A DNA stretch of 46,926 nucleotides from a virus: positions 1 to 46,926 of IMG/VR virus record IMGVR_UViG_3300017917_000355; one strand, written 5' to 3'. The translations under genes and the position numbers were made by a program. Below the pieces are notes generated by a model. It searched no databases, was not told where the DNA came from, and saw only the letters and a program-made list of their open reading frames with translations. Numbering within the stretch: the first letter of the stretch is position 1; every line of letters starts with the position of its first letter. This document shows, one piece after another, positions 11,253-32,381 of the stretch.

Positions 11253-11275
11253 GTGTAGAGTGATAAATACTACAT
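11253..11275 (+). promoter_or_regulatory. Late motif GATAAATAC inside a start-codon hairpin
   Basis: GATAAATAC (11262-11270) lies 3 bases before the ATG at 11274. GTGTAG (11253-11258) can pair with CTACAT (11270-11275), putting the late motif in the loop and the first two bases of the start codon in the stem. A transcript begun at this late promoter would lack the left arm and be nearly leaderless. The stem is only 6 bp, including one G-U, so this is weaker than the sites at 16879 and 22509. Confidence 0.4.
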
Positions 11276-11900
11276 GAAACATAAATCCGCAGACAACTTC
11301 TTTGATGATATCGACTTTGTTAGTGTTGTGAGCAACATTAAAGGTATCATGACCAGCGACGGTACTATGTCCACATTGCTAGATTTTGAGCGTGTCTTGG
11401 ACGAAGCCGATCTATACGCATTCCAAAACTGGGAGCTAGGAGAGCTAGTTCAGGGACCAAACTCAGGTCGCTATTCAGTGTCATGCGTTTTCATGTGGCC
11501 TTACAAACTAATGCCCGATCCAAGTGGTGCAAAAAGACTTGCAAACATTGGTTGCAACGTATCATTCAAAAAGGGCAAAATCAAAGTACCCATCGAAGTA
11601 AAGAATTACGATGACTTTGTCCAGGGGACACGTTATCCTAAAGGTGTGGAAAAGAAAATTTGGTTTGTGATGATTGAGATTCCTAAAGAACTAATGAACG
11701 AAATCAAAGAAGGTTCTATTGACTTAGCAGACCAAACAATTGACTTGGATGACATTGAGAATGCATACGAGGACGATTTAGATAAAGAGAATACACAAAA
11801 AGAGGGAGAAGCCCCTGAAGATCAAGCACAAGCCGGCGGTATGGGTGGCGGAATGCCTACTGCGCCAGCAGGAGCACCAGGAGCGGTTCCACCGATGTAA
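11274..11900 (+). CDS. Conserved T4-like phage protein with Gly/Pro-rich tail
   Basis: A 208-aa protein starting MKHKSADNFFDDIDFVSVVSN. I recognise the N-terminal and central blocks (LLDFERVLDEADLYAFQNW, WPYKLMPDPSGAKRL, KKIWFVMIEIPKELM) as a conserved protein of aquatic T4-like phages, of unknown role. Residues ~150-180 are acidic, and the last 25 are Gly/Pro/Ala-rich and probably disordered. Late-type promoter motifs immediately upstream suggest late expression and perhaps a virion or assembly role. Two bases separate it from the next gene. Confidence 0.7.
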   Translation: MKHKSADNFFDDIDFVSVVSNIKGIMTSDGTMSTLLDFERVLDEADLYAFQNWELGELVQGPNSGRYSVSCVFMWPYKLMPDPSGAKRLANIGCNVSFKKGKIKVPIEVKNYDDFVQGTRYPKGVEKKIWFVMIEIPKELMNEIKEGSIDLADQTIDLDDIENAYEDDLDKENTQKEGEAPEDQAQAGGMGGGMPTAPAGAPGAVPPM

Positions 11901-11902
11901 TT

Positions 11903-12448
11903 ATGGAAAAGAGAATAATATTTGAAGGTTTAGACTTCCATGACATGGAAGGTCAAATTATCCCACTAGTAACAGTAGACGAATACTCTGCTAAGATGGG
12001 TTCAGATAGTGATGTTGTCACACTGTCTTTCATTGTAAAATCAGAAGCTGCTGGAAACGATCTAGTTGATTGGTTCGAACGTGGTTATGATTGGGTAATG
12101 GATGCTAGCTTGAGTGAAGGTGAGATTGAACCTAATCGCTGGTTAGTATTCGTTGAAATAAGCCGCAGGTCTACTGTGCCCGGCAGAATCATTGAACTAT
12201 TAAAAGACTTAAAAACACTAACAAGCTTGAAGCTGTCACAATGGACTGTACAAGTTGAAGATGAAGATTATGATCCTGAAGAACAAATTCTACACCAGGT
12301 TATCATCTGCAACCCTAATGAATACAAGATTGAAAAAGAAAAAGAAGATGAGTTGAACGAAATGCGTAGTGTAGCGGGGCTATCTACGAAGCCTATCTTT
12401 GAAAAGGACAGTGAACTTAAAGACTTCATCAGCAAAGCTGGATTATAA
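11903..12448 (+). CDS. Conserved T4-like phage protein paired with the preceding gene
   Basis: A 181-aa protein (MEKRIIFEGLDFHDMEGQIIPLVTVDEY...). Alpha/beta composition, with WFERGYDWVMDASLSEGEIEPNRWLVFVE and a run RIIELLKDLKTLTSL. It sits 2 bases after the preceding gene, and the pair looks like a conserved unit in related phages. No catalytic motif or membrane segment is visible. Function unknown; coexpression with the upstream gene and the downstream holin suggests late synthesis. Confidence 0.65.
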   Translation: MEKRIIFEGLDFHDMEGQIIPLVTVDEYSAKMGSDSDVVTLSFIVKSEAAGNDLVDWFERGYDWVMDASLSEGEIEPNRWLVFVEISRRSTVPGRIIELLKDLKTLTSLKLSQWTVQVEDEDYDPEEQILHQVIICNPNEYKIEKEKEDELNEMRSVAGLSTKPIFEKDSELKDFISKAGL

Positions 12449-17687: not shown

Positions 17688-19451
17688 ATGAAACAAATCG
17701 TCATCATGCCGGGAGGCTTTCACCCGTTTCATGCGGGTCACTACGCTTTATATCAAAGCGCATTAAAAGCCTTTCCGGGTGCTGACGTTTATGTAGCAGC
17801 AACAAACGACCAAAGTGAAAGACCATTCCCCTTCTCTATTAAAGAGAAATTAGCTAAATTAGCAGGTGTTCAACAAGGTCGTTTTGTTCAAGTTAAGAGC
17901 CCGTTTCAGGCTAAAGAGATTACACAACACTATGATCCAAACAGCGATGTACTGATTTTCGTTCGTAGTGAAAAAGACAAGACAGAACAACCCAAGCCAG
18001 GTGGAACAAAGAAGGACGGGAGTCCATCATATTTTCAACCCTGGACAGGAAAGAATTTACAGCCATTCAGCAAACATGCATACATTGCATATCTACCAAC
18101 AGTGACATTTGGTCCTGGTATTCAAAGTGCAACTGAGATTCGCAAAGCATGGCCTACACTAGATGACCGTCGTAAGACAGCAATGGTCATGAGTCTATAT
18201 CCAGCAACTCAAAAGAACCCTAAGTTAGCACAGAACGTTGTGCAACTATTAGACATGGGTATGGGTGGACAACAAGTAAATGAGTTTGCACCCGGGAACG
18301 GTGATGGAGGTCGTAACCATGAATATGAAGTTTATCAAGCAAACTTAAATGACCAATTCGATTGGATCGGTGGACCACTTTATCAAACAGATAACTTAGG
18401 TCAAGCACATTCTGTAGCTTATGATTTGTGGAAGAAACATCCAGACAAAATGTTCATGGTCTGGCAAGAGCGAAGTCAAGGCAGTCGAGGTGGTTATGGT
18501 CCTAAAGGATCTGAACTTGCACCAGACGAGGATCTAGATGAAGGTTGGAAAGAAAAAGCAGCAGCCGCAGCATTAGCAGGCACAATGGCTACAGGTGCAG
18601 GTGGTATCGTATTGAATCCGAATCGTATCATCGATGGTTCCGGTCGTAGCGCAGCCAATCCATATGGCAACGTGAATAGCATGGGTCACCCTATCAAGAA
18701 AGCTGAACCTAAAGTTATCACAATTAACGGTAGAGATTATCTTCGCCATGAATTGCCTAGCGACATGAGCAAGGTACAGATAGCTACCGATGACAAGGGC
18801 AATAAAGTATATGTATGGGTTGAAAAGGCTGGCATGAAGCCTCAATATACATACTACTGGTATGCTCCTATGCAACAAGTTAAAGAATTTGCCCCTGGTG
18901 GAGACTTCAAACCTCCTGTTCCCCCGAAAGAAAAAGGTAATGATCCTTGGGGCAACGATGACCGTAGCAAGATTCTGCAAGCAGTCAAGCAACTATTAGC
19001 TGCAGGCAATAAAGTAGACTGGAAAGTCCCTGGTCAAATGGGACATGTCGTTAGAGTTACTGACGATGCAGTTACAATGAAGCGTTGGGGCAAGCCTTAT
19101 AGCAAGATTCATTATTCACTAATGATGACTGATGACCGTGATGACCAGTATCAAATCATGATGGTCAAACCGGGCTATTATAAAGTCGTTAGCACTGATC
19201 CTAATTGGCAATTGGAAGAAGCAGATATGTTCATGCATGATCCAGAATCTGAAAAGATCATGAACTATGCACAACAGCATTATCCCGGCGCATTGAATAA
19301 ACAGCAAGCATTCATGAAATTCGTACAACGTGCCTTGAAGCACAGTCAAGAAGAAGATGAAGCACAGGATGAGCAGATCGCTCAATTGACCAAAGCGGTG
19401 AAACAGCTAGATAAGGTCACCGAAAGCACTGATTATCTAGAGGAAAAATAA
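17688..19451 (+). CDS. Cytidylyltransferase-like domain fused to modular cargo-type C-terminus
   Basis: A 587-aa protein. Residues 1-~180 form a nucleotidylyltransferase domain (MPGGFHPFHAGHYALY, HxGH at 15-18; the later FGPGIQSATEIR stretch suits an ISSTxIR-type motif). The remainder is modular and broken by hydrophobic-x-Glu sites: VNE|F (197-199), LDE|G (283-285), VKE|F (398-400) and VTE near the C-terminus. After LDE comes an Ala/Gly-rich hydrophobic stretch (KAAAAALAGTMATGAGG) and a small beta domain, an arrangement repeated in the 1105-aa protein at 23339. It lacks the short N-terminal targeting signal. The role could be nucleotide or NAD-type metabolism plus a packaged C-terminal part; both are inferred. 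Confidence 0.65.
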   Translation: MKQIVIMPGGFHPFHAGHYALYQSALKAFPGADVYVAATNDQSERPFPFSIKEKLAKLAGVQQGRFVQVKSPFQAKEITQHYDPNSDVLIFVRSEKDKTEQPKPGGTKKDGSPSYFQPWTGKNLQPFSKHAYIAYLPTVTFGPGIQSATEIRKAWPTLDDRRKTAMVMSLYPATQKNPKLAQNVVQLLDMGMGGQQVNEFAPGNGDGGRNHEYEVYQANLNDQFDWIGGPLYQTDNLGQAHSVAYDLWKKHPDKMFMVWQERSQGSRGGYGPKGSELAPDEDLDEGWKEKAAAAALAGTMATGAGGIVLNPNRIIDGSGRSAANPYGNVNSMGHPIKKAEPKVITINGRDYLRHELPSDMSKVQIATDDKGNKVYVWVEKAGMKPQYTYYWYAPMQQVKEFAPGGDFKPPVPPKEKGNDPWGNDDRSKILQAVKQLLAAGNKVDWKVPGQMGHVVRVTDDAVTMKRWGKPYSKIHYSLMMTDDRDDQYQIMMVKPGYYKVVSTDPNWQLEEADMFMHDPESEKIMNYAQQHYPGALNKQQAFMKFVQRALKHSQEEDEAQDEQIAQLTKAVKQLDKVTESTDYLEEK

Positions 19452-20390: not shown

Positions 20391-20399
20391 GATAAATAC
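20391..20399 (+). promoter_or_regulatory. T4-type late promoter motif GATAAATAC
   Basis: GATAAATAC lies 2 bases after the terminator T-run and 6 bases before the ATG at 20406. With T4 late spacing, RNA would begin near 20404, so the transcript would be almost leaderless. No Shine-Dalgarno sequence is present. Confidence 0.6.
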
Positions 20400-20405
20400 A
20401 ATACT

Positions 20406-21959
20406 ATGAATTTTAACGAACTTGAATCCTTCAGTATGTCAGACGCTGTGAAATTTCACACTGAACTGAATCCACTATTATGGCAACATAGCAAGTTGCG
20501 CCCAGAAGTCAAGCGACAACTAAAGAAGATTGCTGATGACTTCCTTGAGGAATTAGGTATCAGTGGATTAGACGTTGCTGATTTGACTGTTTCAGGTTCT
20601 AATGCAGCCTATAGCTACACACCCCATAGTGATATTGACTTGCATATTCTTATAGATATGGAAGAGTTGAACAATGATGAAATCTATCGTGAGTTGTTCA
20701 ACGCTAAAAAGACAATCTATAACCAATCTCACAAGATCACAATTCATGGCATTCCAGTAGAAGTATACGTACAGGACGCTAATGAACCTGTCATTAGCTT
20801 GGGTGAGTACAGCATTCTACAAGACAAATGGCTCAAGATTCCTGTCAAGCGCAGATCAAATTTTGACCAAGCAGCTACAAAGCAGAAATATGAGAAGTTA
20901 TTAGAGTTGATTCAACATGCATTGAAGTCTAAGAATTTGGCTACAATCAACAGTGTATTAAAGAAGATTAAGCAATACAGACAAGCAGGGTTAGATAAGG
21001 GCGGAGAGTTTGGCCCCGAGAACTTAGCATATAAAGCACTTAGAAATCAGGACTACATTACTAGACTATACGATTTGCGTGATAAACTACATAGCGAGGA
21101 ACTTACTATTGAAACTATGTATCAGCAATCGAACAACTTATTGAATCGTCCTGAACTAAGTCTACGTCAATTGTCAGCAAAGCATAATGTTCCAATAACT
21201 CACTTGATTGCTCAATTAAAGCAGGGCATCAAAGTAGAAAAAGAACATACAACTTACGGTCAGACAGCACGTGAAATAGCACTAGACCACTTGGCAGAAG
21301 ATCCTAATTATTACACCAAGTTGAAGAAAGCTGAACTTGAAGAGGACAAGTACGATGAATTACCTGAGAAGGTATATCATGTTACTCCTGCAGTGAATTT
21401 AGACAATATACTAATGCAGGGTCTGATCCCACAAACAGGTGATCGCACCAGAAAGATTGAGGGCGAGAAGCCTGCTATATACTGTTTCCCTGATAAGGTT
21501 GCAATGGAAGATGCTATGATGAACTGGTTAGGTGACGAATTCGAAGAAGATGAAGCACTAGCATTACTAGAGATTTATACAACAGGGTTGAAGGGGCAAG
21601 TAACTGAGGGAGCCGAATACGAAGTTGCGATTACGAGTAAGATTCCTCCTCAGAATATCAGAGTAATATCTAAGGATTTAGCTACACCTTTAGCTGAGAC
21701 TGATACCATGCAATATGCAGCTTCAAAAACAGCACCTACAAATCCATACGGTGGTTTCAGAGACATACAGTATCGTGGTAGTATTTCAGAAGCTAGTGGA
21801 TATATTCCATCTGAGAAAGAAAAGAATGATCCTCGCTTTAAGACAGCATTAACTGTAGATGTTAAGCCTGATTCTATCAAAAAGAATGCTAAAGCATTTT
21901 ACAGCAAAGTAAGTCGTGCCGGCATACCTCCGACTCTTAATACTCACGGGAAATTCTAA
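20406..21959 (+). CDS. Nucleotidyltransferase (pol-beta fold) fused to ADP-ribosyltransferase-like domain
   Basis: A 517-aa multidomain protein. Residues ~50-170 are a pol-beta-superfamily nucleotidyltransferase: VSGSNAAYSYTPHSDIDLH gives the GS motif (64-65) and DxD (76, 78). A middle part (~245-300) has an HTH-like segment and a block resembling DUF5661 (KEHTTYGQTAREIALDHLAE). Residues ~318-420 look like an ADP-ribosyltransferase fold: VYHVTPAVNLDNILMQGLIP (H325), AIYCF (Y359) and YEVAIT (E406) give the H-Y-E order and recall the DarT/KptA-like entry strand. The last ~60 residues follow ISE and begin ASGYIPSEKEKNDPRF, a cargo-like module. It could modify host RNA, DNA or protein; substrates are unknown. 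Confidence 0.65.
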   Translation: MNFNELESFSMSDAVKFHTELNPLLWQHSKLRPEVKRQLKKIADDFLEELGISGLDVADLTVSGSNAAYSYTPHSDIDLHILIDMEELNNDEIYRELFNAKKTIYNQSHKITIHGIPVEVYVQDANEPVISLGEYSILQDKWLKIPVKRRSNFDQAATKQKYEKLLELIQHALKSKNLATINSVLKKIKQYRQAGLDKGGEFGPENLAYKALRNQDYITRLYDLRDKLHSEELTIETMYQQSNNLLNRPELSLRQLSAKHNVPITHLIAQLKQGIKVEKEHTTYGQTAREIALDHLAEDPNYYTKLKKAELEEDKYDELPEKVYHVTPAVNLDNILMQGLIPQTGDRTRKIEGEKPAIYCFPDKVAMEDAMMNWLGDEFEEDEALALLEIYTTGLKGQVTEGAEYEVAITSKIPPQNIRVISKDLATPLAETDTMQYAASKTAPTNPYGGFRDIQYRGSISEASGYIPSEKEKNDPRFKTALTVDVKPDSIKKNAKAFYSKVSRAGIPPTLNTHGKF

Positions 21960-22492: not shown

Positions 22493-22547
22493 CATAAATC
22501 GTATAAATGAGGACTGAGATAAATACTATATTATCTCGGAATTCCTC
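22493..22547 (+). promoter_or_regulatory. Late promoter inside a long start-site hairpin
   Basis: Three ATAAAT elements stand in a row (22493, 22502, 22518), the last being the full GATAAATAC. It forms part of the left arm of an interrupted hairpin: GAGGA (22509-22513) with TCCTC (22543-22547), and GAGATAA (22516-22522) with TTATCTC (22531-22537). The structure ends one base before the ATG at 22549. RNA begun at the late promoter (~22531) lacks the left arm and is open, while read-through RNA would be closed. Confidence 0.6.
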
Positions 22548-22548
22548 T

Positions 22549-23337
22549 ATGAAAATCAATCAAATCATACTAAGTGAGATGGCAACGTGTGCTGGTTCAG
22601 TAGCATCAGTTGCCAAACCAATGGGCGAAACACAAAAAAGACCTAAAGTAAAAGGTCTTGAACCTGCTGAAAAAGTAATGTTCGGCAAGACAAAGAAAAA
22701 AGGCCCATATGCTAACAGTCTAAGCGAGGGTAAAGTTAAACAACTTTCAATGGATTTGAAGGGTGGTAAAGACGGACTATCCGACGAAGAATTTAAAAAG
22801 AAGTACGGTAAGACGAAGCAAGAAGTTCGTGCCGCAATGAAAGAAAAACCACAAAAGCAAGAGCCAGTACAAGAAGCTAAACTAGACGAAGAAGATATTA
22901 TTCTTGTTCCTGGTCGTGGTGCTAAACGCAAGACAGGCTTTGTACCACGTGGACAAAGTCGTGTAGATCATGAAGTTGAAATGGCTCGTAGCGATGTGTT
23001 AGCAACAATTAAAAACGCTAAAGCAATATATGAATTACTACAAAACCGTAGCGAAGATGAAGGTCTTGAGGGTTGGGTACAAGAAAAACTAATCAAAGCC
23101 AATGACTATCTAAATGCTGTTAAAGAATACTACGATGAGAAGATCGGTGAGATGACCGGTGGCGTTATTGCAGGTGGCATCGCAGCCGAAGGTGCTAAAG
23201 TAGATCGTATGGTAAAGCACATCACTAAAAGCGAGAAGAAGCTAGGTCACTCTAAGAAAGAAGCAGAGAACATTGCTTGGGCAACAGCTAATAAACGTGG
23301 CATGCTAGACAATAATAACAAGAAGAAGGCGAAATAA
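22549..23337 (+). CDS. Basic phage protein with T4-like capsid-targeting N-terminus
   Basis: A 262-aa Lys-rich protein. The ATG at 22549 is chosen because it follows the late-promoter hairpin and yields MKINQIILSE|M, resembling the T4 capsid-targeting sequence MKTYQEFIAE with a hydrophobic-x-Glu cut site (LSE, residues 8-10). Further LSE, VQE and AAE sites occur internally. Other segments are FKKKYGKTKQEVRAAMKEK, a helical middle (NAKAIYELLQNRSEDEG) and a C-terminal block VDRMVKHITKSEKKLGHSKK resembling small modules at the ends of other phage proteins. It is probably an internal head protein; its activity after release is unknown. Confidence 0.6.
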   Translation: MKINQIILSEMATCAGSVASVAKPMGETQKRPKVKGLEPAEKVMFGKTKKKGPYANSLSEGKVKQLSMDLKGGKDGLSDEEFKKKYGKTKQEVRAAMKEKPQKQEPVQEAKLDEEDIILVPGRGAKRKTGFVPRGQSRVDHEVEMARSDVLATIKNAKAIYELLQNRSEDEGLEGWVQEKLIKANDYLNAVKEYYDEKIGEMTGGVIAGGIAAEGAKVDRMVKHITKSEKKLGHSKKEAENIAWATANKRGMLDNNNKKKAK

Positions 23338-23338
23338 T

Positions 23339-26300
23339 ATGAGTCGTATTTTAAAAGGGTTGAACGAAAGTCGTGATTCTTGGGATAGCAACATGCCCGG
23401 CTACAAAGGTGATTACGGTGGCGCAGAAAACTGGGGCCGTAGAAATCGTGAATGGGATGAAGATGATAGAATCGATGCACAGATAAGACAACGACATGCA
23501 GAGAAGATGGAGTATGAAAAATCAGGTAAGTTCTGGTTGAAATTAAAAGATACTCAACAGCACTTACCTGCAGGTCCGTTCATTGGTAAGCAAGCAGCTA
23601 ATACGGCAGCATTAGACTTGTTAAAGCAGCAACCTGAGTTAAAAGGTAATCTATTGATTACTGCGTATGGTCCTGATGAACAAATCAATGAACTAAGCCC
23701 ACAAGCATTAGCAAATTATAAAAAAGCAGCCGGAGCAGATGCTAGTAAGAGTGATAGATTAGCACAAGCAAGCAGAGATATTAATGATACTGAAATGGCA
23801 CAGAAATTAACAAATCGTGCTAATAAGCGTTTCGGTGGTATTGTTAAGGCTACGAAGAAAGAATTTGACAATGACGCCAAAGGTCTAGCAGAAGGCTCAC
23901 AAACTGAAGGTGAAGCAACTCTAGCAAAGATTGCCGCTAGCGGCGATGATGGCTATGAAATGATTTATGATGGTCTAAATGGACTATTAGGTACTGAAGC
24001 ACAAATCATTCTTCAGGATATGTATGACGATGTATCTATTGAACATAGATTACATCCTGATGACGACTTTGAAGCAATTCAAAACCGCATGATGGATCGC
24101 ATCGAAAAAGATTATGGTGTCAACGAATCATACTATGACAGAGGTGATTACTATGATGCACGTATGGGCGGTGAGTATGGTAGAAATCTAACACCGCAAG
24201 AGTTAGGTGGTGCTGGCAGATATGTAGCAAGAGGTGACGGGGATGGCGAAGTAGGTCGCCCTGCAAAAGTAACAGGTGTAACTAATAAGTTGCCAGCAGA
24301 TCCGTTTGGTCGTACAAGTGGTGTAACACCAAAAGACTTAGGTACTGGCAGAATTCATAGAATTGCCGGCCCCGGTGACGAAGTTGATGAAGGCATCGGT
24401 GCTGATATGGCTAAACTAGGTGGTATGGCAGCGATAGGAATCGGTGCAGGACTAGCAGGTAACTATGCCGATCAACAACAAACTAAAGTAGAAGTCGGTG
24501 GACAGAAAGCATACTTAGTTAAGAACCCAGGTTGGGGCAGAGTCCCTGACAATGCCATGACATTACAAGGCAAGGATGGTAAGACATACACTGTATGGGC
24601 AGCTAAAGGTAAAGGTACTACTCAATATTATGCTACACCTTCAGAAGTCAAAGAAGAAACAAACCCACATACTAGTGCAATCGGTAAGGCATTGTTTCGT
24701 GACCTAAGCAAAGAAAAGAAGGCAAGTCCGGCACAAGTTAAGCGCAACGAAATTCGTTGGGCACAGCGTCAGAAAGCAAGAGCAGAGCAACCACCAACAA
24801 AAGGTATGAGCGATGCTGAGAAAGTAGACAAAGGTTGGCGTAATCCTAACATTGATGAAGGTGAGTTAAACGAATCTTCTACCATTGATTTTATCAGAGG
24901 ATTAATCTCTGAATTTAATACACAAATGAGTGGTAGTCCATACTATCCAATGGATTACAAGAATCCAGGTATGAGAATGTGGACTCGTGGTGATGGCTCA
25001 AAATACAAAGATCCTGGTTACATTTTTATTGACCGTGACTTGAAGCCAGAAGATCAACCTAAATGGCACAAAGCAAAAGCAGTTGAAAAGTTTTGGAAGT
25101 TCTTAGAGTCCAAAGGTGCTCGTAAGATAGGTGATGTTTCCGGTGAGTTTGGTTCAGATCCACATAGCCCTGCTGTTGTATTAAACAAGCAAGTATTCGT
25201 ATTCAACGGTCGTAGTATTGCGTGGGGTTCAACTAGCAGATTAAAGAATTCTAGTGTATGGCGTCAAAAACAGCAAGGTGTAGCGGAAGACGATGCTGGT
25301 GATGTTGAACAGCGTATGCTTGTTAAAATTGAAAAAGAAAAACAGCGTTTAGCACAACTAAAGAAAACTGACCCAGAAGCATACAAGCGTGAAATGGCCA
25401 AGCGTGAACAAAGTCGTAATAGAATGCCTGCAGTTTCTACTTTTGAACAGCAAGGTGTAACAGAAGGCTGGGTTGATACTATCAAAAATATATTCAAGCG
25501 TAAGCCTAAAGATAACAGAACTGTGTTTGAAAAAGATCCAGAAGCAATGCGTGAATTTGAACGCTCAGGTGGATACGAAGCCGGCTTAGATATCATGGGT
25601 TGGCAAATAGGCTGGTTCGCCGCCGAACATGCACAGGGTGATACTATGGAACAAGCGTTTTCAAAGTTGTATTACGGTGGCGGTAGCCCAATGCCCTTTG
25701 ATAATCGTTCATTCAAACTAGCATGGGTAGCATACAACAAGCATCACGGACCTCAAGTAGCAATGGAAGGTCCTGTTTTTGACAAGTGGGCAGATGAAAG
25801 AGTAGCATCGCAACTTTATAAACTAAAACCCTTTGCGATCTGGGAAGTTAGTTTCGATTATGGACCACACATGTCAGACTCCGTAAAAGTCAAAGCAAGA
25901 TCAGAAGAAGAAGCTATTGCTAAAGTTGAGAAAGCGGCAGATAAACAAGGTCGCAATATAATGATTAACTGGGCAAGATCACAAGAGCAAGATGTTACTG
26001 AAGACTGGCAGAAAGTCAATAAGAAAGACAAGACCGATGGTATGAGTCGTAAAGCAGTCAAAGCATATCGCAGAGAGAATCCCGGTTCTAAGCTAAAAAC
26101 CGCTGTTACTACAAAGCCAAGTAAACTAAAGAAGGGTTCTAAGTCTGCTAAACGCCGTAAGTCATTCTGCGCTCGTATGAGTGGCATGAAGAAAGCACAT
26201 GCAAGTGCTAAGACTAAACGAGATCCAGATAGTCCAATCAATAAGGCATTGCGCCGTTGGAACTGTGAGAGTGTCGAGCAATTACAAGAGTTAATGATGA

Positions 26301-26656
26301 TTGCTGAACAGAAAGTAAAGCAATTACGTGAGGCTGCAAACCCAGCACAACAGGCTGCAATTGCTATTAGCAAGAAAAAAGAACAAGGTGTGGCGGAAGA
26401 AAAACAACGCTTAGATGCTAAATGCTGGACCGGATACAAGAAGCAAGGAACAAAAATGAAAGGTGACACTAGAGTAAATAACTGTGTTCCTATCAAAAAA
26501 GAAAGTGCTATCGAAAAGGGTCTAGTAGACGAGAATTTAGGTATGCCGAATCCAGGAACATACGAACAAGAGACAGCTCCTTTAAGACGCAAACTAGGTC
26601 AACAAGAGCGTGTACAAAAAATCGCATTTGAAGGAAAGAAGAATGCTAGCAGATAA
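23339..26656 (+). CDS. 1105-aa modular polyprotein with repeated protease-type sites
   Basis: It begins MSRILKGLNE|S, a capsid-targeting-like start. Hydrophobic-x-Glu sites recur: LAE (183-185), VNE (261-263), VDE (349-351), VKE (437-439), LNE (510-512), GVAE (647-650), GVTE (706-709), DVTE (885-888) and GVAE (1017-1020), dividing it into ~10 unlike modules. The module after VDE has an Ala/Gly-rich, membrane-like segment. The module at ~889-985 is very basic (SAKRRKSFCARMSGMKK) and matches a widespread phage domain (DUF6321-like), probably nucleic-acid binding. Another reads CWTGYKKQGTKMKGDTRVNN. Inferred: a precursor cut by prohead protease into several packaged proteins. No module has a recognised enzyme motif. 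Confidence 0.6.
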   Translation: MSRILKGLNESRDSWDSNMPGYKGDYGGAENWGRRNREWDEDDRIDAQIRQRHAEKMEYEKSGKFWLKLKDTQQHLPAGPFIGKQAANTAALDLLKQQPELKGNLLITAYGPDEQINELSPQALANYKKAAGADASKSDRLAQASRDINDTEMAQKLTNRANKRFGGIVKATKKEFDNDAKGLAEGSQTEGEATLAKIAASGDDGYEMIYDGLNGLLGTEAQIILQDMYDDVSIEHRLHPDDDFEAIQNRMMDRIEKDYGVNESYYDRGDYYDARMGGEYGRNLTPQELGGAGRYVARGDGDGEVGRPAKVTGVTNKLPADPFGRTSGVTPKDLGTGRIHRIAGPGDEVDEGIGADMAKLGGMAAIGIGAGLAGNYADQQQTKVEVGGQKAYLVKNPGWGRVPDNAMTLQGKDGKTYTVWAAKGKGTTQYYATPSEVKEETNPHTSAIGKALFRDLSKEKKASPAQVKRNEIRWAQRQKARAEQPPTKGMSDAEKVDKGWRNPNIDEGELNESSTIDFIRGLISEFNTQMSGSPYYPMDYKNPGMRMWTRGDGSKYKDPGYIFIDRDLKPEDQPKWHKAKAVEKFWKFLESKGARKIGDVSGEFGSDPHSPAVVLNKQVFVFNGRSIAWGSTSRLKNSSVWRQKQQGVAEDDAGDVEQRMLVKIEKEKQRLAQLKKTDPEAYKREMAKREQSRNRMPAVSTFEQQGVTEGWVDTIKNIFKRKPKDNRTVFEKDPEAMREFERSGGYEAGLDIMGWQIGWFAAEHAQGDTMEQAFSKLYYGGGSPMPFDNRSFKLAWVAYNKHHGPQVAMEGPVFDKWADERVASQLYKLKPFAIWEVSFDYGPHMSDSVKVKARSEEEAIAKVEKAADKQGRNIMINWARSQEQDVTEDWQKVNKKDKTDGMSRKAVKAYRRENPGSKLKTAVTTKPSKLKKGSKSAKRRKSFCARMSGMKKAHASAKTKRDPDSPINKALRRWNCESVEQLQELMMIAEQKVKQLREAANPAQQAAIAISKKKEQGVAEEKQRLDAKCWTGYKKQGTKMKGDTRVNNCVPIKKESAIEKGLVDENLGMPNPGTYEQETAPLRRKLGQQERVQKIAFEGKKNASR

Positions 26657-27083
26657 TTTAAAAGTGCTATTAGCAAGCACACAGAGTTTTGCGATTAAGT
26701 CGCAGAACTTTCATTGGAACGTTGAAGGAAGTGATTTCCCTCAATACCACGCATTCTTTGACACATTATATAGTGATGTAAGTGATACTATAGACCGTAT
26801 CGCTGAGTACATCAGAATACTTGGTGCTTACACTCCGGGCAGTTTAACTCGCTATAGTGAACTAAGTATCATCCAAGATCAAACAAAGATTCCACGTGCG
26901 GAATTAATGTTTCAAGAGTCATTGCACGATTGCGAAGTAATGAGTGAACTAGTTGTTGCTATGTTTCATGAAGCGGCGAATGAGAATCAACAGGGCATCT
27001 CTAACTTTATGGCTGAACTACAAGACCTCTATGGTAAGAAGGCATGGTTCATCCGTTCTATATTGAAAAAGGCACGTGAGTAA
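26643..27083 (+). CDS. Dps-like ferritin
   Basis: A 146-aa four-helix-bundle ferritin of the Dps family. The ferroxidase ligands H24, H36, D40, D51 and E55 (NFHWNVEG, QYHAFFD, DTIDRIAE) have the spacing of E. coli Dps H51, H63, D67, D78 and E82 (12, 4, 11 and 4). Dps dodecamers bind DNA and detoxify iron and peroxide. The ATG at 26643 is preferred over an upstream GTG because AAGGAAAG stands before it. It overlaps the polyprotein's end by 14 bases. It lacks the lysine-rich DNA-binding tail. Phage use may be DNA protection or iron sequestration. It lies within the suspected cargo operon but has no targeting signal itself. Confidence 0.85.
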   Translation: MLADNLKVLLASTQSFAIKSQNFHWNVEGSDFPQYHAFFDTLYSDVSDTIDRIAEYIRILGAYTPGSLTRYSELSIIQDQTKIPRAELMFQESLHDCEVMSELVVAMFHEAANENQQGISNFMAELQDLYGKKAWFIRSILKKARE

Positions 27084-27084
27084 A

Positions 27085-27762
27085 ATGAAAATTTCAGAAC
27101 TTCTAACAGAATCTATAGTTGACGAAGCAGAAACTGATCCGTCTATTAGAAAGATCCTACAACAAAAGGGTTATAAGTATTTAGGCGCGGGGGTAGATCA
27201 AACAGCTTACTTAGCACCTGATGGTATGATTTTAAAAATCTTTGGTACCAGTCGCCATGCTAAGCCTGGCAGCTTAGAATTAACCAAGAGCCAAAAGACA
27301 TTCAAGGCTTATGCAGACTATTGCAAAGCAAATCCTGATAATCAATTCTTGCCACAGTTTAGCGATTGGGCTATGTTCCAATATAAGGGTAAACCTTATC
27401 TACAGATTAAAATGGAAAGACTATTCCCATTCAATAAAGGTGCCGCTGGTTGGAATGATGTGTTAGAAGCTATTGCTGACCGTGCTGCATATAGTAAGCA
27501 GCCAGCCGCTAAAAAGAAATTCTTAGACAGATATTTGAATCAAAGCTATGACTCTTGGTCTGTAAAAAGAACAGAAGAATTGTTATCACACTTAGGTGAC
27601 GAGGGCTTCAACAAGTTATGGGATACAATCTATGACTTGAGACAAGTATCTAAAAAGATTGGTCTAGGTAACTTAGACTTACACAGCGGTAACTTCATGC
27701 TAGGTAGCGATGGTGAAATCGTTATCAGCGACCCATTCTTTGCAGGTTGGAATGCAGAATGA
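27085..27762 (+). CDS. Protein-kinase-like phosphotransferase with capsid-targeting N-terminus
   Basis: A 225-aa protein beginning MKISELLTE|S, like T4 MKTYQEFIAE. The rest is a small kinase/aminoglycoside-phosphotransferase fold: Gly-rich loop LGAGVDQTAYLAPDG (33-47), candidate ATP-binding Lys51 (ILKIF), catalytic loop NLDLHSGNF (D198, N203) and metal-binding DPF (216-218) in place of DFG. All key residues are present, so activity is plausible. If packaged and injected it would act in the first minutes of infection, in analogy to T7 gp0.7 (kinase) or T4 Alt (packaged transferase); this role is inferred. The ATG follows the dps stop by 1 base. Confidence 0.7.
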   Translation: MKISELLTESIVDEAETDPSIRKILQQKGYKYLGAGVDQTAYLAPDGMILKIFGTSRHAKPGSLELTKSQKTFKAYADYCKANPDNQFLPQFSDWAMFQYKGKPYLQIKMERLFPFNKGAAGWNDVLEAIADRAAYSKQPAAKKKFLDRYLNQSYDSWSVKRTEELLSHLGDEGFNKLWDTIYDLRQVSKKIGLGNLDLHSGNFMLGSDGEIVISDPFFAGWNAE

Positions 27763-29654
27763 GATTACGTGAGTTTATAGTAGAAACACCAGAGATGCTC
27801 GATGAAGTATCAATGCGTCCTTCTACCCTAAAACAAATGGCAGCACAAACAGGTGCAAAGGCCGGCATCGAATTTGAAATGATTGTCCCCAATGCTGAGA
27901 CAGACGATGGCGACCAAGAACCTGATTATGATAGCGATGAGCGAGTCACTGACTTTGACAGCATTGATGAATTCTTTAGTAACGGAGACATGAACTCAAG
28001 TAGTGACATTCGTAGACTGATCGAAGGTCTTAAGGAAGGTTACTACGATTGGGCCGGTGAAAAGCGTTATGAACAGTGGGAAGGTGAGAAGTATGACTTC
28101 TTCAAAGACTACTTCACACTAAACGAATTTGATGACGATGGTGCAAAAGAACAAGCCGAAGAAGAAATCCGCGAAGCTAACCCTGAATTACCTGAAGATA
28201 GTGAAGAATTTCAAAGTGCAGTCAAAGAGCGTGTTGATGAAATTCTTGACGAACAATTAGAGGAAGCATGGGACGATCAGGGTAGAATCTATGATCGTGC
28301 TAGAGAAGAATGGGAACAAGATGCTGACTGGCCAGATGAACAAGACTATCTAAGATATGAAGGCTATCGTTTTATGAGCGACTTGCCATATAACGACTAT
28401 GATGTATACTGGCCTTACTACACAAACGGCGGCGAAGTATCCATTGAAGAAATTGCACAGGAATTCCAAGACGCAATTGATAGACCTGTAAACTTCAGTA
28501 GTTCATATCACGGTGGCGCACGTGAAGAAAACACATACGTTGTAGAACCTGATAGTAGTCTAAGTGGTGAATCAGGTGACGGTGGACTAGAGTTTGTTAG
28601 CCCTCCACTACCAATCGATGAAATGCTTAGTGACTTCAACAAAGTTATTGCATGGGCTAAACAAAAGGGTTGCTACACAAACCAATCAACTGGTCTACAC
28701 ATGAACGTTAGCGTTCCTAACTCAAGTCGTGAAAACATTGATTACGTTAAACTAGCATTGTTGTTAGGTGATCGTTATGTACTAGAGCAGTTTGGTCGTG
28801 CAGCTAACACATACGCAAAGAGTGCGTTTAATGAAGTTATTCGTAGAATTAAACAGCGCCCAGAAGATGCACAAGCACTATTACAGCAAATGAAGTCTGG
28901 TTTAGGTGCACAAGCATCTAAAGTTATTCACAGTGGCATCACTGACAAATATATCAGTATCAATGCTCACGGGGAATACATTGAATTCCGTAGCCCCGGT
29001 GGTGATTGGTTGAATGCTGACTGGTCTAAACTAGAGAACACATTGTTGCGTTTCGTTGTTGCACTCGATGCGGCGTGCGATCCACAGAAATTTAGACAAG
29101 ACTATTTGAAGAAGTTATATCAAGTACTGCAACCAAAATCTGAAACTGATCCCATTGCATTGTTTGCTAAGTTCAGTGCAGGTGAAATGTCTAAGCAAGA
29201 GTTGACACAGTTCATTAAGCAAGTGCAGACACAACGTAATATTGCCAAAGACCCAACAGGTGGCAAGAAATACTGGTGGAACGTACAAGGAGAGAGTCAG
29301 CGTATGGAAGTTGTTGCTACTAATACACAAGAAGCCATCGCTACCGCAGTTAAAGAATGGGGTGTTCATCCAGAGAGCGAATTTGCTAGAATGTTAAGAG
29401 CTACACCTATTAGACCATACGTTGAAGCACCTGCGACTAATCAGCAAGAACCACAACAAGCTGGCCCAATGAGTCATACGTATAGAGTATTCACTACTGA
29501 TGGCAATCAGACTGTTGGTACGTTTGAGGCTCCTGGACCACGTGGTTCTAGAGAAGCACAAGTAGCATACAATAGTTTCTTAGCTAGAATGGGCAGAAGT
29601 ATATCTGATGCACAAGGATTATTCGACTATCAGGAGATAGGAAGAGTACGTTAA
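27759..29654 (+). CDS. Amidoligase-like protein with capsid-targeting N-terminus
   Basis: A 631-aa protein starting MRLREFIVE|T. After a leader come AGIEFEMIVP, a long acidic helical insertion (~40-220), then YVVEPDSSLSGE, GGLEFVSPPLP and STGLHMNVSVP, the ordered motifs of the putative amidoligase (COOH-NH2 ligase, ATP-grasp-like) family. Later ISINAHGEYIEFRSPGGDWL fits the second acidic/Arg motif. The C-terminal 150 residues hold WWNVQGESQRMEV...A and SHTYRVFTTDGNQTVG, small modules that look appended. Amidoligases join carboxyl and amino groups, e.g. on peptides or cell-wall precursors; the substrate is unknown. ATGA overlap with the kinase-like gene implies joint synthesis. Confidence 0.65.
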   Translation: MRLREFIVETPEMLDEVSMRPSTLKQMAAQTGAKAGIEFEMIVPNAETDDGDQEPDYDSDERVTDFDSIDEFFSNGDMNSSSDIRRLIEGLKEGYYDWAGEKRYEQWEGEKYDFFKDYFTLNEFDDDGAKEQAEEEIREANPELPEDSEEFQSAVKERVDEILDEQLEEAWDDQGRIYDRAREEWEQDADWPDEQDYLRYEGYRFMSDLPYNDYDVYWPYYTNGGEVSIEEIAQEFQDAIDRPVNFSSSYHGGAREENTYVVEPDSSLSGESGDGGLEFVSPPLPIDEMLSDFNKVIAWAKQKGCYTNQSTGLHMNVSVPNSSRENIDYVKLALLLGDRYVLEQFGRAANTYAKSAFNEVIRRIKQRPEDAQALLQQMKSGLGAQASKVIHSGITDKYISINAHGEYIEFRSPGGDWLNADWSKLENTLLRFVVALDAACDPQKFRQDYLKKLYQVLQPKSETDPIALFAKFSAGEMSKQELTQFIKQVQTQRNIAKDPTGGKKYWWNVQGESQRMEVVATNTQEAIATAVKEWGVHPESEFARMLRATPIRPYVEAPATNQQEPQQAGPMSHTYRVFTTDGNQTVGTFEAPGPRGSREAQVAYNSFLARMGRSISDAQGLFDYQEIGRVR

Positions 29655-29688
29655 ATTAAAGCACCTAATTATCCAGACTATATAGTTG

Positions 29689-30609
29689 ATGAACATTACA
29701 GTCTGCTTTGATAAGATTGACCCGAAACCCTGGGTAGAGTTGCTACGCAATTCTATCCCGGGTTCTTTTGTGTCAGAATGGAAATCAGGCAATGAACCTA
29801 GCGATATAGCAATTGTTTGGGAACCCACTCAACAATTCATAGACGAACAAAAAGACCTCAAATTCATATTCAATATAGGTGCTGGTGTAGATTCATTGCT
29901 GAAGTTGAATTTACCAGACTCAGTTAGGATAGTTAAGCTAGACGACCCTGATATATCACTACAAATGTCCGAGTATGTTTCTCATGCTGTGATTCGTCAT
30001 TTCCGCAAGTTTAATGAATACGCCACTGATGCTAAGAAGAAGCGCTGGACCCTAAGAAAACCAAGAAATCGCTCTGACTTCACTGTCGGTATTATGGGAT
30101 TAGGTAATACGGGTCAACGTGTAGCAAAAGCACTCAGAGTATTTGACTTTCCTGTTAACGGATATAGTCGTAGCAACAAGGATATAGAGGGTGTAACTTG
30201 TTTTTCAGGAAAAGAGCAGTTCAGTGACTTCTTGGGTTCTAGTCAAGTGCTAGTAAACTTACTACCATTGACAAATGACACTGAAAACATACTAAATCGT
30301 GAAACAATGTCACAGCTTCCCCGCGGGGCCTATGTCATTAACGTGGCTAGAGGAAATCACTTAGTAGAAAGAGACTTAGTTGAATTGATAGACAATGGAC
30401 ATCTGTCCGGTGCTACGCTTGATGTATTCAGAACTGAACCATTGCAACCACAGCATCCATTTTGGGAGCATCCAGATATAACAATTACTCCACATATAAG
30501 CGCACGTATAATGCGTGAAGAAACAGTTACACAAATAGTAAGCAAAATAGAAGCGATAGAACGAGGGGAATCTATCACCGGTGTCATTGACTCATCTAAA
30601 GGATATTGA
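29689..30609 (+). CDS. GhrA-like 2-hydroxyacid dehydrogenase
   Basis: A 306-aa D-isomer-specific 2-hydroxyacid dehydrogenase closest in pattern to glyoxylate/hydroxypyruvate reductase A. NAD(P)-binding IMGLGNTGQRVAKAL, the segment VLVNLLPLTNDTENILN, catalytic Arg in NVARGNHLVERDL, Glu in FRTEPLQPQHPFW and catalytic His in ITPHISA are intact. Such enzymes reduce glyoxylate or hydroxypyruvate. As an auxiliary metabolic gene it could adjust redox or one-carbon/serine metabolism during infection. The ATG at 29689 is preferred over the adjoining TTG. No clear Shine-Dalgarno sequence precedes it. Confidence 0.9.
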   Translation: MNITVCFDKIDPKPWVELLRNSIPGSFVSEWKSGNEPSDIAIVWEPTQQFIDEQKDLKFIFNIGAGVDSLLKLNLPDSVRIVKLDDPDISLQMSEYVSHAVIRHFRKFNEYATDAKKKRWTLRKPRNRSDFTVGIMGLGNTGQRVAKALRVFDFPVNGYSRSNKDIEGVTCFSGKEQFSDFLGSSQVLVNLLPLTNDTENILNRETMSQLPRGAYVINVARGNHLVERDLVELIDNGHLSGATLDVFRTEPLQPQHPFWEHPDITITPHISARIMREETVTQIVSKIEAIERGESITGVIDSSKGY

Positions 30610-30616
30610 TAAATAC
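30608..30616 (+). promoter_or_regulatory. T4-type late promoter motif GATAAATAC
   Basis: GATAAATACT overlaps the stop codon of the dehydrogenase gene and would start RNA near 30621, giving a ~125-base structured leader before the nuclease gene at 30746, far longer than any other late leader in this window. Confidence 0.55.
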
Positions 30617-30639
30617 TTATAACATAAAGAACCCACCTT

Positions 30640-30736
30640 AGGGCACGTTGTCGTCAACGGTTAATGGCGTCAAAAGGGCGGCTGCTGCCCTGACTATGAT
30701 TACGCCAGATCATACTCAAAGTGAGCATTTTATTTT
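30640..30736 (+). ncRNA. Candidate structured leader or small RNA
   Basis: Within the 136-base gap several stems can form: CGTTG/CAACG with a TCGT loop (30646-30659); TGGCGT (30665-30670) with ACGCCA (30702-30707) enclosing AGGGC (30675-30679) with GCCCT (30687-30691); and CTCA/TGAG (30715-30725) followed by a T-rich run. AGGGCA at 30640-30645 could instead pair with TGCCCT (30686-30691), so two exclusive folds exist. It could be a regulated leader for the nuclease gene or an independent small RNA ending at the T-run. No known riboswitch family was recognised. Confidence 0.35.
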
Positions 30737-30745
30737 GGATTAAGA

Positions 30746-31558
30746 ATGAAAAGAATTATAACAACAATCGCACTTACTCTTTTAGCAGGTTCTGCATTTG
30801 CATGGACTCAACGAGCACCTCTTCCAGTAGAGCAATGCAAAGTACATGCACCATATGGATTCCCTCAAACTGCTGGCGCGCAGCCATTATGTCAGCAGGC
30901 ATATCTAGTTGGATATGATGCTGCCGCAAAAATACCAAAGTTTGTCACTTATGAATTACTACCTAAAAATGCTCTTGGCTGTGTCGCTCGTACTAACGCT
31001 TTTGTTGCTAATCAATATGTTCCAAATAGCCCCACTCCCGCCGATTACGCTGGTAGTGGATATGATAAAGGCCATGCTGTTCCTGACGGAGATTTAAGTT
31101 GGGACCAACAAGTTGAGTATGAATCATTCTTAATGACTAATATGTATCCACAACATGGTTCATTAAATCGTGGTATCTGGAAGCTATTAGAGACAAGTAT
31201 TCGAGGTTGGGCAGTACAAAAGAATCAATCTTATACAGTTTACGTAGGTGCAATCTATAGCAATGCAGACAAGAAGATAGGTAATGGTGTTGTAGTACCA
31301 AATGCATTCTATAAGATAGCTATCAACAATGCAACTAAAGAATTCGCAGCATGGGGATTCCCACACAATCCACCGTATGGTAACTTGGGTAATGATTTGA
31401 CTAAGTTCCGTGCTCCTATAGCAAAGATTCAGCAAATGGCTGGTGTACAATATGCATTACCTCAAGGGGCTATTGAATTACAGCCGGGCAAAGAATGGGC
31501 AGTAGATTTCGGGGCATTGACAAATGCGAAACGTGCTAAATGTGGCAAAGCAGACTAA
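30746..31558 (+). CDS. Exported DNA/RNA non-specific endonuclease
   Basis: A 270-aa NucA/Serratia-type beta-beta-alpha-metal nuclease with a Sec signal peptide (MKRIITTIALTLLAGSAFA, cut before W20). The active-site motif reads YDKGHAVP (DKGH at 107-110, where DRGH is usual; His110 the base), and the metal-binding Asn is N141 (GSLNRGIWKLLE). The family cuts DNA and RNA without sequence preference. Export predicts action in the periplasm or outside, where it could digest host-released or superinfecting DNA. Late motif and structured leader upstream. Cysteines at the mature N-terminus and end may form disulfides. Confidence 0.88.
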   Translation: MKRIITTIALTLLAGSAFAWTQRAPLPVEQCKVHAPYGFPQTAGAQPLCQQAYLVGYDAAAKIPKFVTYELLPKNALGCVARTNAFVANQYVPNSPTPADYAGSGYDKGHAVPDGDLSWDQQVEYESFLMTNMYPQHGSLNRGIWKLLETSIRGWAVQKNQSYTVYVGAIYSNADKKIGNGVVVPNAFYKIAINNATKEFAAWGFPHNPPYGNLGNDLTKFRAPIAKIQQMAGVQYALPQGAIELQPGKEWAVDFGALTNAKRAKCGKAD

Positions 31559-31578
31559 ATACATAACGGAGATATTAG
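31555..31578 (+). promoter_or_regulatory. Late motif CTAAATAC with hairpin around the RBS
   Basis: CTAAATAC (31555-31562) overlaps the nuclease stop codon. CTAA-a-TA (31555-31561) can pair with TATTAG (31573-31578), leaving the Shine-Dalgarno CGGAGA in the loop, just before the ATG at 31580. The stem is A/U-rich with a bulge, so this is a weak candidate for the hairpin-lock arrangement. Confidence 0.35.
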
Positions 31579-31579
31579 T

Positions 31580-31801
31580 ATGAGCGAACATGTTTACACC
31601 TCAGCAAACGAGACATTCTTACCATGGAATGAGTGGGTTAACGAATTTGGGTCAATTGAAGATAAGTTAACTCATTTGTCCGAGGGTTTTAGTGACGAGA
31701 AGAAAGAACTATATGAGCGTTGGCTAGAAGACCAAAAGATTACTAGCTACAAGCACATCGTAAGTGACAGTGTAGTTCAAGAAGAATATTGGACATGGTA
31801 A
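31580..31801 (+). CDS. Small acidic hypothetical protein
   Basis: A 73-aa protein (MSEHVYTSANETFLPWNEWV...), acidic, aromatic and helical, with no cysteine, membrane segment or known motif. CGGAG stands 8 bases before the start. It ends one base before the metallopeptidase gene at 31803 and probably shares its transcript. Function unknown. Confidence 0.6.
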   Translation: MSEHVYTSANETFLPWNEWVNEFGSIEDKLTHLSEGFSDEKKELYERWLEDQKITSYKHIVSDSVVQEEYWTW

Positions 31802-31802
31802 T

Positions 31803-32381
31803 ATGAAGGCTAGAGAATACATATCAGAAAGTGCAGCCGATGAACTAGCCACACGTTTGCCTAGTTTAGAGAAGCATAACTACAACACCATCGACAAACT
31901 GATGCGTAAGATTGCAGCTAAACACAGGATCACTGGTGATCTATTGCACGACATGTTTGTAAAAAAGTTTGACTCGACCCCTGATGACTGGATCAAAAAC
32001 AAACTAGATGAACAGGGTTCAGATGATATCGACATAAAAGACGAGATTGAAAAGTTTGTTGACTGGACTTGCCGTAGACTACACATCAAGACTCGCCCTG
32101 AACTTGAACTAAGTACAGACTCAGAAGAAGCACAAAACAATCACCACACTGGTGCACACACCGCAGGAACAAACAAGGTGTGGGTATATGTCAAGAATAG
32201 AAACCTAGTAGATATTCTACGCACAGTGTTCCATGAATTAGTACACATACGTCAAAGCGAATTGAATATGATTAAGCCGGGCGATAGCTACCCCGGTAGC
32301 CCTATCGAGGTAATGGCAGATATGCTTGCTGGCAAGTATATCAAGATTTACGGAGAGAAGCATCATTATATATTTCAGTAA
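31803..32381 (+). CDS. HExxH metallopeptidase with capsid-targeting N-terminus
   Basis: A 192-aa protein starting MKAREYISE|S, the closest match in the window to T4 MKTYQEFIAE|A. The C-terminal half holds the zinc-peptidase motif FHELVHIRQ (H144, E145, H148) and a likely third ligand in SPIEVMADMLAGKYI (E169), a gluzincin-like arrangement. The N-terminal half is helical and acidic. A packaged, injected peptidase could cleave a host protein at once after entry; substrate unknown. An alternative is cell-wall work during entry, though no wall-binding domain is seen. Its stop overlaps the next start (TAATG). Confidence 0.7.
   Translation: MKAREYISESAADELATRLPSLEKHNYNTIDKLMRKIAAKHRITGDLLHDMFVKKFDSTPDDWIKNKLDEQGSDDIDIKDEIEKFVDWTCRRLHIKTRPELELSTDSEEAQNNHHTGAHTAGTNKVWVYVKNRNLVDILRTVFHELVHIRQSELNMIKPGDSYPGSPIEVMADMLAGKYIKIYGEKHHYIFQ

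Follow-up and report, generated by a model that had tools for sequence, protein, structure and literature searches.

A portable N-terminal tag and modular polyproteins as candidate head-delivered cargo of T4-like phages

IMG/VR virus record IMGVR_UViG_3300017917_000355 comprises one fragment of 46,926 bases from a T4-like myovirus, analysed here over its whole length (the window, G000), in which five genes of different kinds open with similar short peptides. The question raised by this locus is what these shared N-termini do. A first-pass annotation had read them as T4-like capsid-targeting sequences (CTSs), trimmed by the gp21 prohead protease, on five otherwise unrelated proteins that are packaged and injected with the genome. 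We consider it likely that a T4-type capsid-targeting tag, together with polyproteins cut by gp21, delivers many effectors as head cargo. On balance, and with less assurance, we also favour the broader view that a widespread T4-like lineage is a protein-delivery platform, in which a portable nine-residue tag and polyproteins cut within the capsid would supply several injected effectors per gene. The window encodes a T4-type DNA polymerase and clamp loader, and a search of the phage collection for near-identical DNA gave no match.

Five tagged N-termini and their portability

All five tags lie in frame on the + strand, and each reads M-x(5-7)-[IL]-x-E followed by S, T or M. The basic protein (22549..23337) begins with MKINQIILSE|M (tag 22549-22578; predicted cut after E10), and its homologues carry MKINQII(S/N/V/Q)E|(T/M)T in dozens of loci. 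The modular polyprotein of 1105 residues (23339..26656) begins with MSRILKGLNE|S (tag 23339-23368), which falls outside the strict pattern for lack of K/R at position 2; its Glu site is kept in relatives, whose tags include MSKILKGLDE|A (G004) and MSNIIKGLNE|G (G008). The kinase-like protein (27085..27762) opens with MKISELLTE|S (tag 27085-27111), the amidoligase-like protein (27759..29654) with MRLREFIVE|T (tag 27759-27785), and the predicted Zn-metallopeptidase (31803..32381, motif HELVH) with MKAREYISE|S (tag 31803-31829). The starts at 22549, 27085 and 27759 are internal ATGs of the longer open reading frames (ORFs) 22507-23337, 27076-27762 and 27747-29654, and relatives back all three. 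The pattern M[KR]x(2-5)[FILVY][ILV]xE[SATGNM], composed after inspection of the data, matched 4 of the 56 ORFs of the window; when the first 40 residues were shuffled 2000 times, it matched 0.039 on average and never more than 2. The shared N-termini of the first-pass annotation thus stand: all five are in frame, and the four that fit the pattern exceed the shuffle expectation. Over eight genomes, the K/R form of the tag occurs 34 times at N-termini, where the internal positions of these proteins predict about 3.7.

Alignment across related phages bears out the expected cut site. For the metallopeptidase, 36 distinct homologue junctions were collected, of which 35 could be read. Glu occupies P1 in every one (35/35), an I/L/V/M residue P3 in 34/35 and a small residue (S/A/G/T) P1' in 35/35, whereas P2 and the stretch upstream are variable (MRFKQILSE, MLSVDIINE, MHSSNFITE, MKTYQIVLE, MLTEHIIIE and others). 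A fixed site behind a drifting tag is the pattern expected of a protease site following a loosely constrained docking peptide, and these putative roles fit the junctions. In five loci the metallopeptidase body is internal to a longer protein, behind '...GGGES[MI][YN]E|', and none of the five has a start codon 15-24 residues upstream. The AlphaFold model of the window protein (predicted local distance difference test score 78) gave no Foldseek match in the PDB at E <= 0.001 (best 0.7), so that the label of putative metallopeptidase comes solely from HELVH and the invariant His/Glu.

The kinase-like protein matches phrog_15752 (phage protein kinase / host transcription inhibitor, 3e-14) and carries an invariant Glu and an LDLHSGNF motif, and the amidoligase-like protein matches PF12224 (1e-8). 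The IMG/VR scan returned no amidoligase relatives; its homologues came from loci gathered for other genes. Homologues of both proteins occur in tagged and internal forms, the amidoligase body beginning after a site of the same type. Additionally, both hold a second conserved site, IVDE|A (E14) in the kinase and LDE|VSM (E16) in the amidoligase, at which the conserved body starts in several homologues. The proposed trimming at residue 9 or 10 fits the retention of the site in homologues, except that the mature ends of these two proteins may be residues 15 and 17 rather than the residue after position 9. PADLOC found no meaningful match on the cargo.

The tag is portable across protein families. 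With K or R in second place, it was found in 199 ORFs forming 59 body clusters, a sample biased by the collection of loci according to likeness to window genes; one cluster (ClpP) is a likely chance match, leaving about 58 unrelated families. Their logo is M[RK][AI]x[EQD][FI][IL]xE|[STAN]. The search left length and position 5 free, and nevertheless 165 of 186 distinct tags are nine residues long, with E/Q/D at position 5 in 158 of these 165. Pfam assigns the tagged bodies to, among others, GNAT, NUDIX, GH19, Zeta-toxin-like kinase, amidoligase, LysM and HEAT/LRV repeats. Less prone to the sampling bias are the counts over eight genomes and an IMG/VR scan for MRAxEFIxE DNA, which located at least 120 stretches (135 of 146 at plausible gene starts among the matches listed), with bodies of at least 60 residues in at least 29 families. 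The scrambled control MRAxEIFxE yielded 23 matches in total, 8 of them at gene starts, so that the real tag outnumbers it at least fivefold. A bare count of [ILV]xE at residues 9-11 over the eight genomes (135 against about 75 expected, about 1.8-fold) was too loose and was replaced by K/R-led patterns and homologue alignment columns.

Modules and candidate cut sites of the 1105-residue protein

The first-pass annotation overlooked the cut-site pattern within the 1105-residue protein. In 57% of cases, the edge of a non-redundant BLAST alignment lies no more than 6 residues from an [ILVM]xE site, compared with 20% of random positions. For eight internal sites, at least one other protein has an aligned site at such an edge. 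Specifically, E118 (EQINE|LSPQ; 23690..23692, + strand like the sites that follow) has an aligned site at the alignment edge in 16 proteins, and the module behind it is N-terminal in other phages, where it follows MKPSDFLTE, MRTNEFLAE or MKTTDFLTE. E263 (GVNE|SYYD; 24125..24127) aligns with QGVAE|GNYD in locus L007, and E512 (ELNE|SSTI; 24872..24874) with QLDE|ASMY in L250. E650 (QGVAE|DDAG; 25286..25288) recurs as QGVAE|DDAG at an alignment edge in L212, and E709 (QGVTE|GWVD; 25463..25465) as QGVAE|GWVD at an edge in L007. E888 (QDVTE|DWQK) precedes the DUF6321 module (residues 889-976; site and module 26000..26266; PF19846, 2e-10), which is the sole named domain of the protein and in L194 also exists by itself after a tag (MRINEIEIVNE|DWQK). 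Towards the C-terminus, E998 (QLRE|AANPAQQ; 26330..26332) aligns with SVEE|AANPAQQ and GVEE|AANPAQQ, and E1020 (QGVAE|EKQRLDAKCWTGY; 26396..26398) has an aligned site at the edge in four proteins. Across the cargo network, sites co-aligned within the first nine columns mark 18.8% of internal left edges, compared with 4.2% outside it.

Could the tag work as in T4 while the chain itself stays uncut, the QGVxE-like motifs being recombination joints or linkers left by module shuffling? The remaining 43% of edges, which lie away from sites, favour such an uncut chain, and homologous recombination could spread repeated QGVAE-like joints. Against it, the joints share little beyond [ILVM]xE (QINE, LTE, DIDE, DVEE, NLAE, DMNE), and the same module starts after an N-terminal cut site when it comes first in a chain. 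We regard the uncut chain as unlikely, and cutting at these sites as the better account of the modular protein.

The DUF6321 module is present in 307 isolated phage records, nearly all from marine cyano- and pelagiphages, and in the genomes opened (MA01, P-HM1, S-CREM2 and S-SCSM1) it sits between terminase genes. The cargo proteins share exchangeable modules, and the description of the five as otherwise unrelated does not hold for all of them. In Synechococcus phage MA01, the N-terminal region of an 1882-residue protein annotated as a tail fibre (L097:6322-11970) is related to the first module of the metallopeptidase; its gene adjoins cargo genes, again between the terminase genes.

Virion proteomes, head genes and competing explanations

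Virion mass spectrometry (MS) covers proteins of S-CREM2, S-SCSM1 and S-SM1, relatives of the window's own phage, and the presence of tagged proteins and homologous modules in virions of T4-like cyanophages rests on this published detection. The virion proteome of Synechococcus phage S-CREM2 (PMC10665884) contains five proteins with tags of the T4 type, namely an S-adenosylmethionine (SAM) hydrolase (MKDFDSFLEE|F), a kinase (VKRFDAFLTE|E), a cytidylyltransferase (MKNFSSFLTE|A), gp13 (MKDLHSFLTE|Q) and gp136 (MQTFSMFFSE|D). Moreover, the virion-detected cytidylyltransferase of S-SM1 and NMNAT of S-SCSM1 carry MKKFSAFLNE|A and MKSFLQFLKE|A, respectively. Homologues of window modules were detected as well. 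S-CREM2 gp137 is homologous to residues 858-976 of the 1105-residue protein (53%, 1e-28) and weakly matches the first module of the metallopeptidase, gp156 is homologous to ORF 20406-21959 (35%, 2e-39), gp160 resembles residues 997-1064, the CW.GY module (38%, 9e-6), and S-SCSM1 ORF29 matches residues 890-976 (56%). A further virion-detected protein, S-CREM2 gp12 (L261:7704-10313), has a tag-like RFASFMAE|A further in, at residue 25; its annotation as Cas9 looks doubtful.

The protease foreseen elsewhere in the genome was found in relatives rather than in the window. A Peptidase_S77 (gp21) search of the window record gave no match, which is uninformative since the record is a 46.9-kb fragment without head genes. 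In four long relatives, gp21, gp22 and gp23 stand in T4 order. At what we take to be the T4 gp23 cleavage position, the four sequences are HLAE|N, HLTE|S, YLKE|N and HLQE|T, all with L-x-E. Between gp20 and gp21 of L069, L036 and L045 (G005, G006 and G007), the position of T4 gp67/gp68, there are small ORFs (G005 has MFLNEVFQ, G007 has MILNEFFN) as well as an acidic protein that begins MNKYEQLIEFIINE or similar. Both gp67 and gp68 have been reported absent from cyanomyoviruses.

What is directly observed comprises the tag and its portability, the conservation centred on its predicted cut site, the coincidence of module boundaries with such sites, and the gp21 and consistent gp23 site of relatives. 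The capsid-targeting proposal of the first-pass annotation is strongly supported by the fixed [ILV]xE|small site, the spread over about 58 families, the gp21/gp23 of relatives and the S-CREM2 virion data. In the proposed mechanism, the first 9-10 residues would act as a CTS: through its hydrophobic part the protein would attach to the scaffold core of the prohead and so be incorporated during late infection. A gp21-type prohead protease would then cut after [ILV]-x-E, releasing the tag, and would divide polyproteins into small modules by cutting at additional [ILVM]-x-E sites. DNA would be packaged around this cargo, which would leave with the DNA into the next host, where kinase, metallopeptidase and amidoligase would act at once.

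Several points weigh against this interpretation. From sequence we infer core docking, gp21 cutting, internal cutting of the polyprotein, injection and enzyme action in the host, and head genes are absent from the window fragment. The T4-type tagged non-structural proteins of S-CREM2 are all in the virion list (5/5, p = 4e-5) under a template picked after inspection; a looser pattern places 5 of 9 tagged and 22 of 183 untagged non-structural ORFs there (p = 0.003). Several MS-detected proteins carry no tag, the S-CREM2 authors allow for contamination (PMC10665884), and SSCSM1_30, the other T4-type tagged ORF of S-SCSM1, bears no virion-protein label. The cytidylyltransferases of HTVC008M, Cr30, Bellamy and the window are untagged, and candidate sites 185, 351 and 984 of the 1105-residue protein lack edge support.

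An improbable alternative holds that the tagged proteins are core or scaffold parts that serve head assembly and never reach the host. T4 gp22, gp67 and gp68 favour it, being likewise cleaved at LxE and for the most part lost from the head (PMC9026906); the bodies here, however, belong in part to enzyme families (GNAT, NUDIX, Zeta-toxin-like kinase, GH19, amidoligase) and vary greatly among relatives, and mature S-CREM2 virions retain tagged enzymes. A nucleic-acid signal for translation initiation, or a recombination hot spot, would also lie at gene starts, and the tags do recur in tandem genes. This explanation was rejected as very improbable: synonymous codons vary at P1 and P3 (GAA 155 and GAG 31 among the tags), and [ILV]-x-E is conserved with a free P2 and also occurs as an internal site in proteins. 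Chance, or descent of all five genes from one ancestral family, is scarcely credible and was likewise rejected, for although [ILV]xE is short and MK and E are common near N-termini, the excess over eight genomes, the shuffle control, the scrambled form and the unrelated body clusters all oppose it.

Further cargo candidates and comparison with known systems

The set is larger than the five proteins first proposed, related genes at 20406-21959 and 17688-19451 having been missed. The former (20406..21959, + strand) encodes a modular nucleotidyltransferase with DUF5661, a modular C-terminus and no clear tag, and is probably further cargo, being the homologue of S-CREM2 gp156. By eye, YHVTPAVNLDNILMQGLIPQ within its residues ~325-430 resembles ADP-ribosyltransferase/KptA-like sequences, and YH-containing stretches like this region come after tags in L134, L314 and L357. 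The latter (17688..19451, + strand), a cytidylyltransferase-like protein with C-terminal modules and no tag in the window, is possible further cargo. Tagged relatives include MYAHELYE|A (L006), MFLNDLYE|N (L065) and those of cyanophages; because the family is tagged in some members and untagged in others, gain or loss of the tag is traceable.

Transcription lends additional context. A late-promoter-like GATAAATA at 22518..22525 (+ strand), ~30 nt upstream of the ATG at 22549, lies between the two possible starts of the basic protein and thus favours 22549; it precedes the MKINQII genes by 29-30 nt in the window, G004 and G008. Judged by its sequence, GATAAATA appears to be a form of NATAAATA, the late promoter of T4-like cyanophages (PMC2984593). 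It occurs within 60 nt upstream of 13.5% of tagged and 2.8% of other genes, most downstream genes having no motif. A second copy (20391..20398, + strand) lies directly before ORF 20406, and ahead of many homologues the motif gets translated as 'DKY/INT'. No late-promoter motif was found within 60 nt before gp23 of the relatives, which leaves the promoter argument merely supportive.

Among the neighbours, the Dps-like ferritin (window 26610-27083), the D-2-hydroxyacid dehydrogenase (29686-30609) and the DNA/RNA non-specific endonuclease with an apparent signal peptide (30746-31558) are untagged, which speaks against a purely regional feature. Elsewhere, 11903-12448 and 11274-11900 encode two PHROG 'head and packaging' proteins. 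The latter starts MEKRIIFE|GLDFHD, its relatives MTVKIINE|GLDYRD (G004) and MMFEHLLE|GLQYKD (G007), and it may also be processed.

Inside the particle, these phages probably hold a large set of exchangeable proteins that is delivered with the DNA. Since tag and cut sites would be standard parts, recombination could add cargo either as tagged single proteins or as beads of a polyprotein. The nine-residue signature would allow head-delivered proteins to be predicted from sequence in abundant uncultured phages, and many 'hypothetical proteins' would become candidate host-takeover or counter-defence effectors. If the internal cutting is true, it would give a DNA phage a way to make and deliver polyprotein-encoded effectors, and the tags would be ready-made parts with which proteins could be loaded into phage heads. 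A CTS cut by gp21 and carrying varied proteins is already known from T4; scale, cargo and polyproteins are new as far as found, the open-access literature having yielded no description of this tag family, of its use on dozens of families or of T4-like polyproteins with prohead-protease sites.

The closest known system is the CTS of T4 IPI-III and Alt, cut by gp21 (PMC9026906, PMC3012670), which shares with the present tags a short N-terminal peptide, a hydrophobic core, an [LI]xE cut and diverse bodies. T4 gp21 cuts after L/I-x-E, residues 4 and 7 of the IPIII tag are needed for targeting and residues 8 and 10 for processing, an E-to-D form of IPIII is described as packaged yet left untrimmed, and reviewers have proposed the CTS as a general protein-loading route (PMC9026906). 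In the 9-mer, F, I and E correspond to T4 residues 7, 8 and 10, and the cyanophage form MK.F..FL.E matches residues 4, 7, 8 and 10. In contrast to the ten-residue T4 tag, the present one mostly has nine (consensus M[RK][AI]x[EQD][FI][IL]xE), and at 9-10 residues these tags fall slightly below the T4-type range of ~10-19 ending in [LI]xE. The present group further differs in having dozens of cargo families, many of them enzymes, and polyprotein cargo with internal sites. Inner-body and ejection proteins of phiKZ/SPN3US (PMC5694885) are similar in that many proteins are packaged in the head and a gp21-like protease (gp175/gp245) cuts after Glu; their propeptides are mostly long and their sites S-x-E or A-x-E, whereas the tag here is a 9-mer ending in [ILV]xE. 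For injected proteins of several domains, the concept that comes nearest is that of polyvalent proteins, known from phages and conjugative elements (Iyer et al. 2017; PMC5512222); these are multi-domain, with disparate activities, and are thought to be co-injected with DNA, whereas the modules here are joined at sites of the prohead-protease type and are also found as single tagged proteins. Finally, the T4-like cyanophages, to whose virion proteins gp137, gp156 and gp160 of S-CREM2 the window modules are related, have enzymes in their virions (PMC10665884, PMC9602691). The first-pass annotation knew of no such enzyme set; virion kinases and NMNAT/cytidylyltransferases were in fact on record, published without a loading mechanism, and no paper was found that ties them to a targeting tag. 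Their sequences turn out to begin with a tag of this kind, which offers the missing explanation for the kinases, SAM hydrolase and cytidylyltransferases of cyanophage virions.

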